From: Paenibacillus taichungensis
Lineage (GTDB): Bacteria; Bacillota; Bacilli; Paenibacillales; Paenibacillaceae
Length of the DNA: 64,000 nucleotides
Assembly (NCBI RefSeq): GCF_003287275.1
Contig: NZ_QEVW01000006.1
Coordinates: 372,001 to 436,000, forward strand
Direction: 5' to 3'
Made by a program: the position numbers and the translations under genes. How positions within the stretch are numbered: the first letter of the stretch is position 1; each line of letters begins with the position of its first letter. The notes beneath the pieces were generated by a model. It did not search any database and was not told the DNA's origin. It saw only the letters and a list, made by a program, of their open reading frames with translations. Positions 39,798-46,058 of the stretch are shown here, piece by piece.

Positions 39798-41597
39798 TCA
39801 GACCATACCTATTTCTGGGGAATGCTGATTCATTTCTTCAAGCAACGCTATTATTGCAACGACAGCAGCTCGCTCCAATTCCTCCATCTCCAGAAGTATC
39901 AAGATAGCTTGATCGGCCTGAAGCTTCTCGTTTGGCTTTCCGCCTTCAGGAAAAGGAAAACGCTGCTTGAGCATGTTTAACCTTTGGGACATATTTCGAT
40001 ATAACTCTTCCGCCTGAAGACAGAATGGAATCAAGCTGGAATAGCGGGGAATCGAAGCCCACTTTACAGAAAGTTCCCTGAAAAACTCACCGGCATAACG
40101 TCTTGCATCCCACAAAACCGCAATGTTATAGGCATGACCGTTCGGTTCTACCCGTCTATACTCTAGAGCTTCTCTCCATACCGAATAGGCAGCCAGACCA
40201 CTGACCGTGTTCGGCAAGGTATACGGATCCTCCCCACCATAATGAGCCAAAACAGCTGTCAATGCTGCACGCAGGTCCATTTCTCGTATCATGCCATTGG
40301 ATTCCGCTGCCAGTACAAATACTTCCTGATTCACACCACGGCCTACATGATCATAGGGAATTGTTCCTGATTTAATGAAATCTGTACCGTATAAGGTTCG
40401 AACTGCATCATCATAGCCGTAGATCAATCCGAATTCGGGAATATTCAGATCCCATACTACGGCCGGAATTCCCCGATGAATGGAGTAACGAATCAGGGAG
40501 AGGGCCCGAACCAGCCTTGGATTTAGCAACCTTCTCCCTTTCGCTTTCTCCGCTAGCATCGAAGGATCGACCAGATTGGCATTGACCCCCGCTTCACTAG
40601 CCAAAGCCTCAACCGCATGGGAACGATAACCCATATGCTGCAATCCTCGGGTAAGCACCTCTTTGAAGTTATAGGCGGTGGGTCCAGCGATATGTATGTC
40701 CTGAGGCAGGATGGTCAGACGAAAAGAAAGTCCGCTCATCCCCATAACCATGGGGAGAGATGGAGATGAACCGATATAACCTAACATCTCGTGAATGGAT
40801 GCTGCTGCCGAGTTCCAGGTTTGGGGAGTTCGAAACGAACGGGGTTCCTCCAGAATCACTCGATTTTGCCCAAGTGAATTCCACTCTGCCAGCATTTCTT
40901 CTACAGATAAATGAATATGAAGCTGCGACACTTTTTTACGTGAACGTGATAGAATTTGATACACATTAGCACTTGTTAGATTGAATTTGCAGGCAATTTC
41001 TTGCGGCGACAGCTGCTCCATCCAATACGATGTAAAGACCTGTTGCTCTCTCTCGTTCAGACAACCTAGCAGCTTGTGGAGATTGTTCCTCATTTCCTGC
41101 TGAGCAACAGCTTGATATGGATCATAGCCTGTTTCCTGCGATCTCCGCTCGGTGTCATTCAAAAGATAGTTCAGTGTCATGTCGAGCGAGTCTTGATCGC
41201 TCCATGAGGCACCATCAGCTCCAAACCCAAATGCAAAGTACGAAGAAAAGTGTTGTTCGCGCTGCTGCTCTCGGCGTTGCATATGTGAATACGCCTGATT
41301 ACGCACAATGCGCTGCATCCAGGCCATAAAACGGTCAGCATTCTGAAGCTGTCTCATATGAATGAATGCACGAATAATCCCATCCTGTAAAATGTCTTCT
41401 GCGAGATAAGAATCATGTGTAAGTGCTCGCACATAACGGAACAATTGTCCGCGGTAACGGTGAATCAACTCACCAAAGGCCTCTGTATCCCCAGTTTGGG
41501 CTCGTTGGATAAGCGCAATATCCGACTCCTTTTGCCGATTCTCGAATGTTTCATCTTTCCCTGAGCTGATATGGCGATTGACAGTTAATTCATCCAT
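39798..41597 (-). CDS. ECF sigma factor fused to a C39/BtrH-like domain
   Basis: 599 aa. Residues about 28-110 are sigma region 2 (DTEAFGELIHRYRGQLFRYV, AEDILQDGIIRAF, RFMAWMQRIVRNQA). Residues 170-226 are region 4 with the helix-turn-helix LSPQEIACKFNLTSANVYQI. About 260-430 resembles the papain-like domain of the adjacent hydrolase (GIPAVVWDLNIPEFGLIYGYDDAVRTLYGTDF), but where the hydrolase has its active Cys this protein has GMSGLSF. A helical tail (about 440-590) includes ARRYAGEFFREL, echoed by ARRAHDYGLFF in the neighbour. No anti-sigma gene is adjacent. Probably a transcription factor sensing a ligand through its C-terminal domain. Confidence 0.85.
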   Translation of the reverse strand: MDELTVNRHISSGKDETFENRQKESDIALIQRAQTGDTEAFGELIHRYRGQLFRYVRALTHDSYLAEDILQDGIIRAFIHMRQLQNADRFMAWMQRIVRNQAYSHMQRREQQREQHFSSYFAFGFGADGASWSDQDSLDMTLNYLLNDTERRSQETGYDPYQAVAQQEMRNNLHKLLGCLNEREQQVFTSYWMEQLSPQEIACKFNLTSANVYQILSRSRKKVSQLHIHLSVEEMLAEWNSLGQNRVILEEPRSFRTPQTWNSAAASIHEMLGYIGSSPSLPMVMGMSGLSFRLTILPQDIHIAGPTAYNFKEVLTRGLQHMGYRSHAVEALASEAGVNANLVDPSMLAEKAKGRRLLNPRLVRALSLIRYSIHRGIPAVVWDLNIPEFGLIYGYDDAVRTLYGTDFIKSGTIPYDHVGRGVNQEVFVLAAESNGMIREMDLRAALTAVLAHYGGEDPYTLPNTVSGLAAYSVWREALEYRRVEPNGHAYNIAVLWDARRYAGEFFRELSVKWASIPRYSSLIPFCLQAEELYRNMSQRLNMLKQRFPFPEGGKPNEKLQADQAILILLEMEELERAAVVAIIALLEEMNQHSPEIGMV

Positions 41598-41634
41598 GTG
41601 TATTTTCCTTTCTCATAGCCTAGCTTCACTTCCA

Positions 41635-42564
41635 TTACTCCATCTTCAAAATAGCAGCTTCGATCATGGCTTCCGTCTCCGCAAGCGCCTCCATGATTGT
41701 CGCAGCAGCCTCCCAGTTGCGGGATACAAGACGGGATTGGCATTCTCCGAATTGGCGGGATTGTGTGTATTTCAAAGCAGAAAGGTCAGGATGAATTGTT
41801 TTAAAAAACAAGCCATAATCATGGGCACGACGCGCGCCTACTGGCAGAGCAAAATACACATAATGAGCCCACTCATTACCATCGATTGCTCCAGCACGAA
41901 CCTGTTCCGCCTTATGCAGAATCGCTGAAGCTCCTGTTCGTCCTTCCTGAGCAATTTCATGGAGCTGTTCTGTAAGGCTTGATTTGAACCAAGTAAAAGC
42001 GCGGCGGTTAATCTCCTCCAGATCAGGCTGTTCCATGCGTTCAGGACTCCACCATCGTCGATACACACCGCTACTCCACGGGAATTCAGACTTCCATGCT
42101 TCCTCAAGTTTATCCAATGTCAGGAAGACATTCGGGAATCCAGCAGGGTCATGCAGACATATTTCATCGCCTTCCATGCTCAGTGCCACTACATAATGAT
42201 CACAACCACCCAGGTTAGGAGAGTTGGGATTGTAGACGAGTTTGCCCATATCAAGCGGCCCCATCATCACAGGACCCTGCTTCAAAGTCTCTCTTAGCTC
42301 ATCTACAGGCATCTCTGTATCCCGTGATTGCACACTTTCACGCACACTAAACCCCAGAATGCTCATCGCCTTGCTGATGGCCAGATCAGGACTGGAGGCA
42401 CAGTTATCAAAAAAGAGAAGGTCTTCCTGCGTGCGGAAAGCTCCCAGGGAAAAGCCACCGACCGTTTCAAGCAGACCGGGGTCAACCTTTTCTCCAATGG
42501 ACGACAGCAGCATTGAAGCTGAATTAGCGTAGCAATATGCACCATTTCCAATATAATTGCTCAT
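41635..42564 (-). CDS. BtrH/C39-like cysteine hydrolase or acyltransferase
   Basis: 309 aa from ATG 42564 (MSNYIGNGAYCYANS), with AGAGGATG upstream. The N-terminal half has a papain-like triad: C11 in AYCYANSASMLL, H123 in GGCDHYVVAL, D139 in LHDPAGFPNVF. The C-terminal half is helical (ARRAHDYGLFFKTI and a final coiled part). The layout resembles BtrH-like acyltransferases and relatives; peptide or acyl substrate is unknown. It is the first gene, 37 bases before the sigma-fusion gene, whose C-terminal domain appears to be a Cys-less relative. Confidence 0.75.
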   Translation of the reverse strand: MSNYIGNGAYCYANSASMLLSSIGEKVDPGLLETVGGFSLGAFRTQEDLLFFDNCASSPDLAISKAMSILGFSVRESVQSRDTEMPVDELRETLKQGPVMMGPLDMGKLVYNPNSPNLGGCDHYVVALSMEGDEICLHDPAGFPNVFLTLDKLEEAWKSEFPWSSGVYRRWWSPERMEQPDLEEINRRAFTWFKSSLTEQLHEIAQEGRTGASAILHKAEQVRAGAIDGNEWAHYVYFALPVGARRAHDYGLFFKTIHPDLSALKYTQSRQFGECQSRLVSRNWEAAATIMEALAETEAMIEAAILKME

Positions 42565-42693
42565 ATCATAACATCCTCTCATTTCTTTAATGAAGCACGC
42601 TGCTTGCAATGCCTATACTTATTCTGACTCTTCGTAAAGATCATTTCTGACAGAATATCCAGAACAAATTTCTGCCCGCATGAACTAGGGAAC

Positions 42694-42719
42694 GTTTAGA
42701 ATGCGGACATCCCGGTTAA
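42694..42719 (+). promoter_or_regulatory. Possible stress-type promoter of csbD-like gene
   Basis: GTTTAG, 14 bases, GGTTAA resembles the GTTTAA/GGGTAT spacing of general-stress promoters. CsbD genes are stress-induced in Bacillus. Whether this organism has the matching sigma factor cannot be seen here; a product of the adjacent sigma gene is another possibility. Confidence 0.3.
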
Positions 42720-42754
42720 TAAGGACTACACCAGAAACGAAGGAGATGTTCGAT

Positions 42755-42928
42755 ATGAGTAATTCAACTAGCGATAAAATCAAAGCAGGCGTAAACAAGG
42801 CCAAAGGCGAAGTGAAGGATCAGATCGGTAATGCGACTAACAACAGATCCCTTCAGGCTGAGGGTAAAAAAGACAAAGCCAAAGGTGCTGTGCAGGACAA
42901 AATTGCTGATGTAAAAAAACATCACTAG
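42755..42928 (+). CDS. CsbD-like stress protein
   Basis: 57-aa very hydrophilic protein, KAKGEVKDQIGNATNNRSLQAEGK and KAKGAVQDKIADVKKH, the CsbD repeat pattern of Lys/Asp/Gly-rich helices. ATG 42755 (MSNSTSDKIK) follows AAGGAGATG; a longer frame from 42701 has no site. Cytosolic, function unknown, commonly stress-induced. Divergent from the hydrolase-sigma operon. Confidence 0.9.
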   Translation: MSNSTSDKIKAGVNKAKGEVKDQIGNATNNRSLQAEGKKDKAKGAVQDKIADVKKHH

Positions 42929-44984: not shown

Positions 44985-46058
44985 TTATTGGGGGAGCCTC
45001 ACACTGTAGAATCGCATGGCATGTGGCTTCCCTTCCATCTCAAGCCGTCCTTGTATGATCAACTGTCGAACACGATATTCAATGAATGCGTCTCCGACAG
45101 CTTGTTCGAGATGGCCCAGCACCTCACCTACGACGCGGGCTGATTTTATAAACTCGCCAGGCTGTCGGGTTAACGTAACCTCTCTAACCTTCTGCATAAT
45201 ATATTCATCTATCGCGTCTTCAGGCACGCTCTGAATCTCGCCATCCTTCATTAATCGCAGAAGTCCAGGCTGTACAGCCAAATTCACCCACTCTTGATCC
45301 ATGTGTTTGCGTTTCTCCAGAGACAACGGTTCAGCATTCACACAGTGTTGCCACATCGCTAACAACTTCTCAGAAAAAATTTCACCTGTTCTAAGAACAT
45401 CATGCTGAACTCCAGAAGGGTTGAATAATTCCTGATATAATGCACTTGTCTCGATCAAATAGATCGGTCCCAGCCTGTTACGCAGCAAATGCATGGCATA
45501 TAAAAGCCCCGTTCTCTCATGCGCATTATTCGCATACCAGATAGTGATTCGCGTATCTTCATCAATCGAACTCAACATGTTATTTAATTGAAGCAGCTTA
45601 TCCATGCCTTGGACGGCATAACTTCCATGTTCACTCAAATAAAGTTTCTCAAGTAGCCAGAGATGCCTGCGGTGTAAATCCACCTTGTTCGTCAAATCAC
45701 CCAATGGACCGATGGCATAGTAGTCATTCATAGAGAGAAACCGCCGCTCCGAGCGGCCAGGAACCCTGCCCATCGCAACCTTAATGCTGCCTAGCGGCGA
45801 TTCACCAATCGCTATATGAATTTCACGTGGTTTCTGTGCGTTTAATGCCTGTTGCTCGGTTTTCTCCCGGTTCCGATTCTCATCCAATGTATTAAATATC
45901 GACTGAATTTCCGTTGCAAAATGATCAGAATGTTCTTCCGCCGACTGAACACTGACTGCCATATCTACGCTGAGATAGAGCGTACGCAATAACGAACGCA
46001 GCTCATCCTCATTCATAAGATGCAGCTCCTTTTCAAAATCAAAGACATTGTCAATCAT
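44985..46058 (-). CDS. DUF1835 domain-containing protein
   Basis: 357-aa cytosolic protein. After an N-terminal helical extension (1-75), the DUF1835 core runs from about 78 (EIHIAIGESPLGSIKVAM, then DYYAIGPLGDL and ITIWYANNAHERTGLLY), followed by a C-terminal DUF3658-like part (LARTxx-type QLIIQGRLEMEGK end). No catalytic motif recognised. The AGGGGGA-type site precedes ATG 46058. It follows the TVP38 gene by 90 bases. Confidence 0.85.
   Translation of the reverse strand: MIDNVFDFEKELHLMNEDELRSLLRTLYLSVDMAVSVQSAEEHSDHFATEIQSIFNTLDENRNREKTEQQALNAQKPREIHIAIGESPLGSIKVAMGRVPGRSERRFLSMNDYYAIGPLGDLTNKVDLHRRHLWLLEKLYLSEHGSYAVQGMDKLLQLNNMLSSIDEDTRITIWYANNAHERTGLLYAMHLLRNRLGPIYLIETSALYQELFNPSGVQHDVLRTGEIFSEKLLAMWQHCVNAEPLSLEKRKHMDQEWVNLAVQPGLLRLMKDGEIQSVPEDAIDEYIMQKVREVTLTRQPGEFIKSARVVGEVLGHLEQAVGDAFIEYRVRQLIIQGRLEMEGKPHAMRFYSVRLPQ

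Follow-up and report, generated by a model that had tools for sequence, protein, structure and literature searches.

A 64,000-nucleotide stretch of the Paenibacillus taichungensis genome (contig NZ_QEVW01000006.1, positions 372,001 to 436,000 of the forward strand; G000:C52:372001-436000), referred to here as the window, encodes an extracytoplasmic function (ECF) sigma factor fused to a relative of the enzyme whose gene lies beside it. The fusion is probably a one-protein switch. Its C-terminal domain, designated D, would act as a dead-enzyme sensor of a small molecule and control its own sigma factor, which in turn would induce the neighboring enzyme, designated the hydrolase; both the ligand and the sign of the control are what we infer. 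The analysis revealed fold homology between D and the hydrolase, loss of the catalytic triad in D, a conserved self-promoter, the hydrolase as the target that recurs both in cis and in trans, and fused and split forms of the regulator. Both genes lie on the minus strand of an approximately 7-Mb Paenibacillus-type genome, as do all features of the pair given below. The hydrolase gene (41635..42564, 309 aa, ATG start) is followed after a 37 bp gap by the fusion gene (39798..41597, 599 aa), and the two likely form one operon.

The N-terminal part of the fusion contains the two regions that define an ECF sigma factor. Sigma-70 region 2 (residues 44-109; 41271..41468) matches PF04542 (E 2.1e-11, 43.9 bits) and region 4 (residues 171-222; 40932..41087) matches PF08281 (E 4e-10, 39.6 bits), both above the cut-off. 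TIGR02937 scores 93.4 bits, and the best 25 of 102 NCBIfam models are all sigma models. The D domain (residues 255-599; 39801..40835) follows region 4. No anti-sigma-like gene is present among the five Pfam-scanned neighbors, short unannotated frames in the gaps being outside the scan. The fusion protein accordingly belongs with those ECF sigma factors that carry a regulatory C-terminal extension. The original prediction had likewise described regions 2 and 4 joined to a C-terminal half, with no anti-sigma gene adjacent.

The hydrolase retains the intact Cys-His-Asp triad recognized earlier (C11, H123, and D139), followed by a C-terminal helical bundle, and the three residues are invariant in all 21 aligned relatives. 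After removal of near-identical rows, the genus alignments cover 21 of 24 loci (hydrolase, A1) and 20 of 23 (A2). The match to PF14399 (BtrH_N) reaches 16.5 bits, under the curated cut-off of 29.7 bits; the same family matches 20 of the 21 relatives at E up to 1, the best at 1.9e-6, and NCBIfam returned nothing for the hydrolase. Its AlphaFold model (predicted local distance difference test, pLDDT, 88.7) has CtaG, AziU3, and CcbD as top solved matches, with Z scores of 17.1-20.0 over 273-285 residues. A sequence-profile search of solved structures picked up AziU3 weakly (E about 0.3), along with one unrelated entry at 0.12. In the predicted structure, the hydrolase has the two-part BtrH/CcbD/CtaG-type fold, composed of a papain-like half and a helical bundle; acyl transfer from a carrier protein to an amine may be its reaction. 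CtaG, AziU3, and CcbD belong to closthioamide, azinomycin, and celesticetin, respectively, and CtaG and CcbD are, like BtrH, antibiotic-assembly enzymes with a cysteine-protease fold.

The kinship of D with this enzyme is visible mainly in structure. BLASTP detected no similarity between D and the hydrolase, a sequence-profile search of solved structures found no relative of D, and Pfam returned nothing for residues 255-599, which places the 345-residue domain outside every Pfam family. A shallow profile comparison was suggestive only. With hhalign, the two profiles align colinearly over 213 columns (E 0.0056), with a score of 28.9 that exceeds the best of 60 column-shuffled decoys (21.4) and the reversed decoy (14.3). 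This alignment pairs GARRAHDYGLFF with DARRYAGEFF, the helical motif whose likeness had been noticed in the original prediction. The AlphaFold model of D (pLDDT 92.9) has AziU3, CtaG, and CcbD as top solved matches, with Z scores of 15.2-18.3 over 265-284 residues, nearly the whole chain; the next row is a designed helical bundle with a Z score of 11.0. Furthermore, the main helices and strands occur in the same order in both models. The relationship is thus weak by profile, in order, and affirmative by predicted structure, which settles that D and the hydrolase share the fold of a BtrH-type acyltransferase. The earlier claim that the C-terminal segments match the hydrolase in order is upheld by both approaches.

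Within this fold, D has lost the triad. Across 72 D sequences, 20 of which are close relatives of the window domain, the nucleophile position is occupied by Ser (47) or Thr (22), together 69/72, in agreement with the predicted absence of Cys. The catalytic His position carries Glu in 68/72, and the catalytic Asp position carries Asp in 45 and Glu in 21 (66/72). In a less redundant set of 55 (alignment A3, without L149, whose range was badly set and whose frame is broken, and L159:6081-7190, which has a partial start; L and G numbers denote loci and genomes), the corresponding counts are 53, 52, and 51. The positions in D were assigned from sequence and secondary structure alone. In the window, they are S263 (D-domain S9; codon 40809..40811), which lies at the start of the first helix, as in the hydrolase model, E388 (E134; 40434..40436), at the start of the strand equivalent to the H123 strand, and D406 (D152; 40380..40382); all three codons were verified. 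As judged from these replacements, D is probably catalytically dead. The cleft region is nevertheless conserved: W128, D129, P133, E134, F135, G136, Y139, G140, Y141, D142, and D143 are each found in 58-71 of the 72 sequences. The helical bundle is also kept, with R245 in 72/72, Y279 in 69/72, and the motif FPFP.GG.PN. A cleft that has lost its chemistry and conserved its walls suggests binding, and its acidic and aromatic character would suit an amine ligand. One D relative, L239:7951-9039, was considered as an active form on account of the Cys in 'HRSCVGA' and was rejected, since the alignment places Ser at the nucleophile position.

A promoter motif of fixed spacing precedes the fused genes. 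It reads TTGTCAGAAAT-N12-[AC]GTC, and the TGTCAG-N17-NGTC spacing is maintained in 42 of 43 sites. At 41 of 71 fused loci, the motif lies close to the annotated start, compared with 0.045 in shuffles. A wider and slightly looser scan, which has no control of its own, added seven loci where the start is set differently and nine where the motif lies ahead of an operon-leading hydrolase, giving a total of 57 of 71; the other 14 belong to the second clade of the tree. In the genus of the window, the motif lies about 90 bp ahead of the enzyme gene in all 23 operons. The window itself contains a predicted ECF-type promoter, TGTCAGAA-N15-AGTC, at 42626..42652, 61 bp ahead of the hydrolase ATG, and this is the single site of the exact motif in the 7-Mb genome. 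As the reversed control has four genome matches, rarity by itself proves nothing, and the position of the site is what counts. In thirty other main-clade genomes, the strict pattern gave 55 matches versus 18 for the reversed pattern, and 23 of the 55 correspond to the sigma-D promoter. Seven genomes, G226 among them, were missed at sigma-D by this pattern; of the six whose loci were read (L134, L136, L140, L172, L174, and L173), five have GGTC and G266 has TGTCAGAG. Separately, sites of the sigma-D motif at L287:1501-1527 and L283:1501-1527 coincide with the 3' end of a peptide-transporter gene resembling oppF and point antisense into it; similar sites are present in G179, G187, G188, G221, and G226, with the gene context read for G188 and G221.

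The same promoter marks the hydrolase, even where the two genes are apart. The main-clade fusion set comprises 53 genomes (cut at E 2.5e-87, with the frame-broken G155 excluded). Among the five of these in which the hydrolase lies elsewhere in the genome, it stands under a sigma-D promoter in four (G252 and G319 by the strict pattern; G266 and G258 by the weight matrix). The search for a shared promoter proposed in the original prediction therefore succeeded in linking both genes. The unlinked hydrolases score 19.9-31.4 against a null 95th percentile of 2.8; the null windows were drawn from loci around sigma-D, so the 99th percentile holds real sites and only the 95th was used. Two loci, L120 (5.0) and L129 (4.8), were counted as lacking the motif though they exceed 2.8, the lowest accepted site ahead of a hydrolase scoring 17.6. 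Overall, among genomes that have a hydrolase gene, 28 of the 29 with main-clade sigma-D have this gene under the motif (23 genus operons, four unlinked genes, and G217, where it lies inside the sigma-D operon), versus none of the eight without main-clade sigma-D; G337 and G392 are left out of these counts. Of the nine hydrolases without the motif, seven adjoin a regulator of the AraC or MerR type that has a GyrI-like domain, the exceptions being G205 and G269. Such a regulator, its GyrI-like domain being a ligand-binding one, lies beside the hydrolase in six of the eight genomes devoid of main-clade sigma-D. Control of the enzyme thus seems to fall mostly to sigma-D or to a regulator whose domain is of a drug-sensing type, an argument for D as the ligand-reading part of the fusion. 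At two loci, L124:5224-7154 (G252) and L127:5288-7218 (G269), the hydrolase has beside it one gene of 260 aa and one of 381 aa, the lengths being the same in both; they encode a DeoR-type regulator and an amidohydrolase in G252, and the amidohydrolase was also shown for G269.

Several observations weigh against the one-protein switch. Among the 53 main-clade genomes, the hydrolase is adjacent in 24, elsewhere in five, and undetected in 24, so it cannot be the universal output of the sigma factor. In G221, which has both genes, the hydrolase is without the motif and lies beside an AraC-GyrI regulator, and the hydrolase gene of G258, counted nonetheless, contains one in-frame stop. Further targets in the genome of the window are unsupported (one exact match versus four reversed, and 35 versus 44 with two mismatches), and 30 of the 55 strict-pattern matches in the other genomes lie neither at sigma-D nor at the hydrolase and are mostly unexplained. 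Concerning the kinship, the HH probability of the D-hydrolase alignment is low (6.5), and the two models were compared via common third structures, not by direct superposition. The original prediction had proposed a genome survey for co-occurrence of the two genes. Co-occurrence stands in the genus, where 24 of the 75 genomes carry the hydrolase and 23 carry the fusion, every one of these 23 adjoining a hydrolase; outside the genus clade, fusions lacking a hydrolase neighbor prevail, the finding that the original prediction had named as contrary. The co-regulation of unlinked hydrolases softens this counter-evidence but does not remove it.

The inseparability of the pair throughout the genus also fits a different function of D, namely that of a protein-docking domain that binds the hydrolase or an acyl carrier protein, with the free partner relieving or imposing sigma inhibition. 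CcbD docks its carrier protein through residues 312-324, according to a published report (PMC12945683), and D retains the helical bundle with its conserved R245 (72/72) and Y279 (69/72). This explanation nonetheless appears unlikely, as the partner enzyme is undetected in 24 of the 53 main-clade genomes, much of the strongest conservation in D surrounds the former active site, and regulators with GyrI-like small-molecule domains fill the same genomic slot.

D extends well beyond the genus of the window. Of the 394 genomes in the family set, 182 have D and 39 have the enzyme, the latter including a short fragment (G337) and a broken copy (G392). Named carriers of D, drawn from 80 loci of 180 confirmed, include Paenibacillus, Brevibacillus, Salinibacillus, Filobacillus, Evansella, Melghirimyces, and Paenactinomyces. 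The gene pair of the window recurs in relatives identified as P. taichungensis, P. pabuli, and P. xylanivorans, among others, and the operon is present in the type strains of the first two. From 123 of 140 loci, with several genomes present twice in unnamed and named form, 127 D domains were classified by architecture: 78 are fused to sigma, 37 lie beside a sigma gene, four have the length of a sigma-D-VOC protein, and eight stand alone. One fused row, L106, has no Pfam sigma match, and one of the 37 domains beside sigma, in L239, follows a fused sigma-D. The split form was defined by a sigma gene next door, so adjacency itself is no evidence for it. VOC stretches belong to the glyoxalase/bleomycin-resistance group. 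Two of the four sigma-D-VOC proteins were scanned (L115:3288-5906 and L116:3075-5609), and Pfam confirmed two VOC stretches in each; L117 and L118 have a similar length and fall in the same tree clade. The occurrence of one regulator in fused and split forms suggests that both parts work together. At L239:5284-9039 and L158:2146-6005, sigma-D is followed by two more D-like genes, and all have Glu at the His position. In the genome of the window, L007:187-3165 (G000:C9) encodes a WYL regulator and then two tandem Cys-less D-like genes. Weak D matches also occur in frames of approximately 340 aa in many genomes of the genus, with neighbors read only in the genome of the window.

The split operons have a motif of their own, GATAG-N15-[GT]GCATC, at 22 of 34 loci compared with 0.01 in shuffles. 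In 20 genomes, it gave 32 matches versus none for the reversed pattern. Of the 30 matches examined in their loci, 14 precede sigma genes, one a D gene, one a pentapeptide gene, one a VOC gene, and three nucleotidyltransferase-like genes (one assigned by Pfam and two alike by eye). Two clades with two motifs, each ahead of its own sigma gene, present the pattern of autoregulated ECF sigma factors. A same-strand gene starts within 160 bp after D in 17 of the 37 split rows, and 11 of these 17 genes, picked partly on their first residues so that the family counts represent a biased sample, were examined with Pfam. They encode VOC proteins (L216, L224 from Paenibacillus harenae, and L231, the last below the cut-off), GyrI-like proteins (L206 and L209), a pentapeptide protein (L212), proteins with pentapeptide and GyrI matches (L223 and L227), and an AadA protein (L207; PF13427, E 1e-23); those of L226 and L239 have no Pfam match. 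These families give the split-clade outputs an apparent small-molecule or antibiotic-response flavor, a hint and not proof. Around the main clade, EamA transporters (15 of 42 loci) and ABC exporters (13 of 42) recur, with family names taken from one or two representatives; this theme was not built on, owing to scattered positions and the presence of some genomes twice.

The split forms bear on whether D might be alive with altered chemistry, its Ser/Thr, Glu, and Asp/Glu set supporting, for example, slow hydrolysis or a self-cleavage that releases sigma. The substituted positions are themselves conserved (S/T 69/72, E 68/72, and D/E 66/72), and the D-like genes that accompany sigma-D in L158 and L239 have retained the Glu as well. 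The base equivalent to His is gone, however, the split forms leave sigma free without any cleavage, and we know of no precedent for a Ser-Glu-Asp set in a papain fold; we consider such an activity improbable. That D is a passive remnant and sigma is controlled only by the amount made is very hard to accept, because D is retained across a range of Bacilli, persists as its own gene beside sigma in 36 of 127 rows (the 37th following a fused sigma-D), and has near-invariant cleft residues, although positive autoregulation by itself can make a switch.

For the one-protein switch, the following sequence of events may be envisaged. The N-terminal sigma factor would recognize promoters of the TGTCAGAA-N15-AGTC type. 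D, a dead BtrH/CcbD-type acyltransferase with a retained cleft, would read a small molecule, probably one akin to the living enzyme's amine-bearing acceptor or its product. When this ligand is absent, D would keep sigma off; when it is present, sigma would fire its own operon, producing more sigma-D together with active enzyme, which would then modify or remove the ligand and close the loop. In the sister operons, the separate D would act in trans on the adjacent sigma factor, like a soluble anti-sigma factor. Anti-sigma factors are often encoded beside their sigma factor in a self-activating operon. The earlier phrase that sigma is controlled without an anti-sigma protein may therefore miss the point, as the split D is encoded beside sigma in an apparently self-activating operon. 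The amine acceptor is favored because BtrH and CcbD act on such acceptors and because of the AadA-type output. As described in PMC12945683, CcbD loads a carrier-bound acyl group on its Cys and passes it to an amino-sugar, whose amine region is recognized by Asp114, Leu129, and the catalytic His. According to PMC10318531, the acyl carrier protein:aminoglycoside acyltransferase BtrH has relatives in the C39 and C70 families. Of the idea that an enzyme relative serves as the sensor, the core stands, since a Cys-less relative is fused to sigma; the proposed peptide or acyl signal is as yet unsupported, the closest folds, CcbD and BtrH, acylating amines rather than cleaving peptides. A bolder proposal, possible in our view and rather doubtful, is that D founds a new class of cytoplasmic sigma regulator, a ligand-released dead-acyltransferase inhibitor that reads amine-bearing antibiotics such as aminosugars and aminoglycosides, fused in one clade and mostly separate in the other. 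The BtrH-like enzyme and the AadA-type nucleotidyltransferase, VOC, GyrI-like, and pentapeptide proteins would then be the answering defenses.

Comparison with known systems places sigma-D among, and apart from, described regulators. Sigma-D may or may not correspond to ECF264, whose type protein comes from Saccharibacillus, a member of the Paenibacillaceae. In the accessible part of a review (PMC8999054, table 2), ECF264, with a Saccharibacillus sacchari type protein, stands under 'Others' of the regulatory extensions and has no assigned mechanism. With the ECF sigma factors carrying regulatory extensions in that part of the review, the window protein shares regions 2 and 4, a C-terminal extension, no anti-sigma gene found adjacent, and probable self-control. 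It differs in an extension of approximately 345 residues that is a predicted dead papain-fold acyltransferase, whereas the extensions described there are SnoaL, TPR, Cys-rich, membrane anti-sigma-like, or uncharacterised, with no papain-like domain among those it presents (PMC8999054). Unlike these extensions, D also occurs as a separate protein beside sigma. No SnoaL family, the mark of the ECF41/ECF56 type, was detected by Pfam in the fusion (E up to 10) or in 55 D domains (E up to 1). For the ECF42 type, the TPR model touched one of the 55 D domains at E 0.24, and the D model is papain-like with a helical bundle. The nearly full-length fold of CcbD, CtaG, and AziU3 is common to the hydrolase and D; the Cys-His-Asp triad of the BtrH/CcbD/CtaG family is kept by the former and lost by the latter. 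Structures of HlyB-type C39-like domains (3zua and 8dck) appear in the structural match list of the hydrolase. In the HlyB domain, a papain-like peptidase fold has given up catalysis and serves for binding; in contrast to D, it resides on an ABC transporter instead of a sigma factor and is without the helical half. In seven other genomes, the place next to the hydrolase that sigma-D has here is taken by AraC/MerR regulators with GyrI-like domains, but their DNA-binding and ligand-binding domains are unrelated to those of sigma-D. Among the papers listed from the open-access literature, none describes such a fusion in its title or opening abstract, most subscription papers being outside that scope.

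The five Pfam-scanned neighbors of the operon are an NAD epimerase, a cupin, a DUF1835/DUF3658 protein, a DUF1641 protein, and a pyridine-nucleotide oxidoreductase, and defense-system models gave no match for the three proteins scanned. A small conserved gene at 42701-42928 on the plus strand, divergent from the hydrolase, resembles CsbD by eye and seems to have a promoter of the sigma-B type. The genome also encodes another long sigma fusion, L002:184-1812 (G000:C6:160411-163680), which combines sigma regions with a DUF1835 domain; a DUF1835/DUF3658 protein is also encoded within the window at 44985-46058.

The sigma-D family is real and coherent as a regulatory family. New here are the distribution and forms of D, the promoter of fixed spacing, the co-regulation of unlinked hydrolases, and the replacement by GyrI-type regulators. 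If the one-protein switch is correct, it would constitute a new sensor principle for sigma factors, in which an enzyme fold emptied of its chemistry reads what the living enzyme handles. It would also offer a ready route to ligands, since the regulator recurs in many Bacilli, partly with recognizable outputs, and would provide compact switches that act on very few targets and may respond to drugs. For Paenibacillus and its relatives, it would name a likely small-molecule-response regulon.

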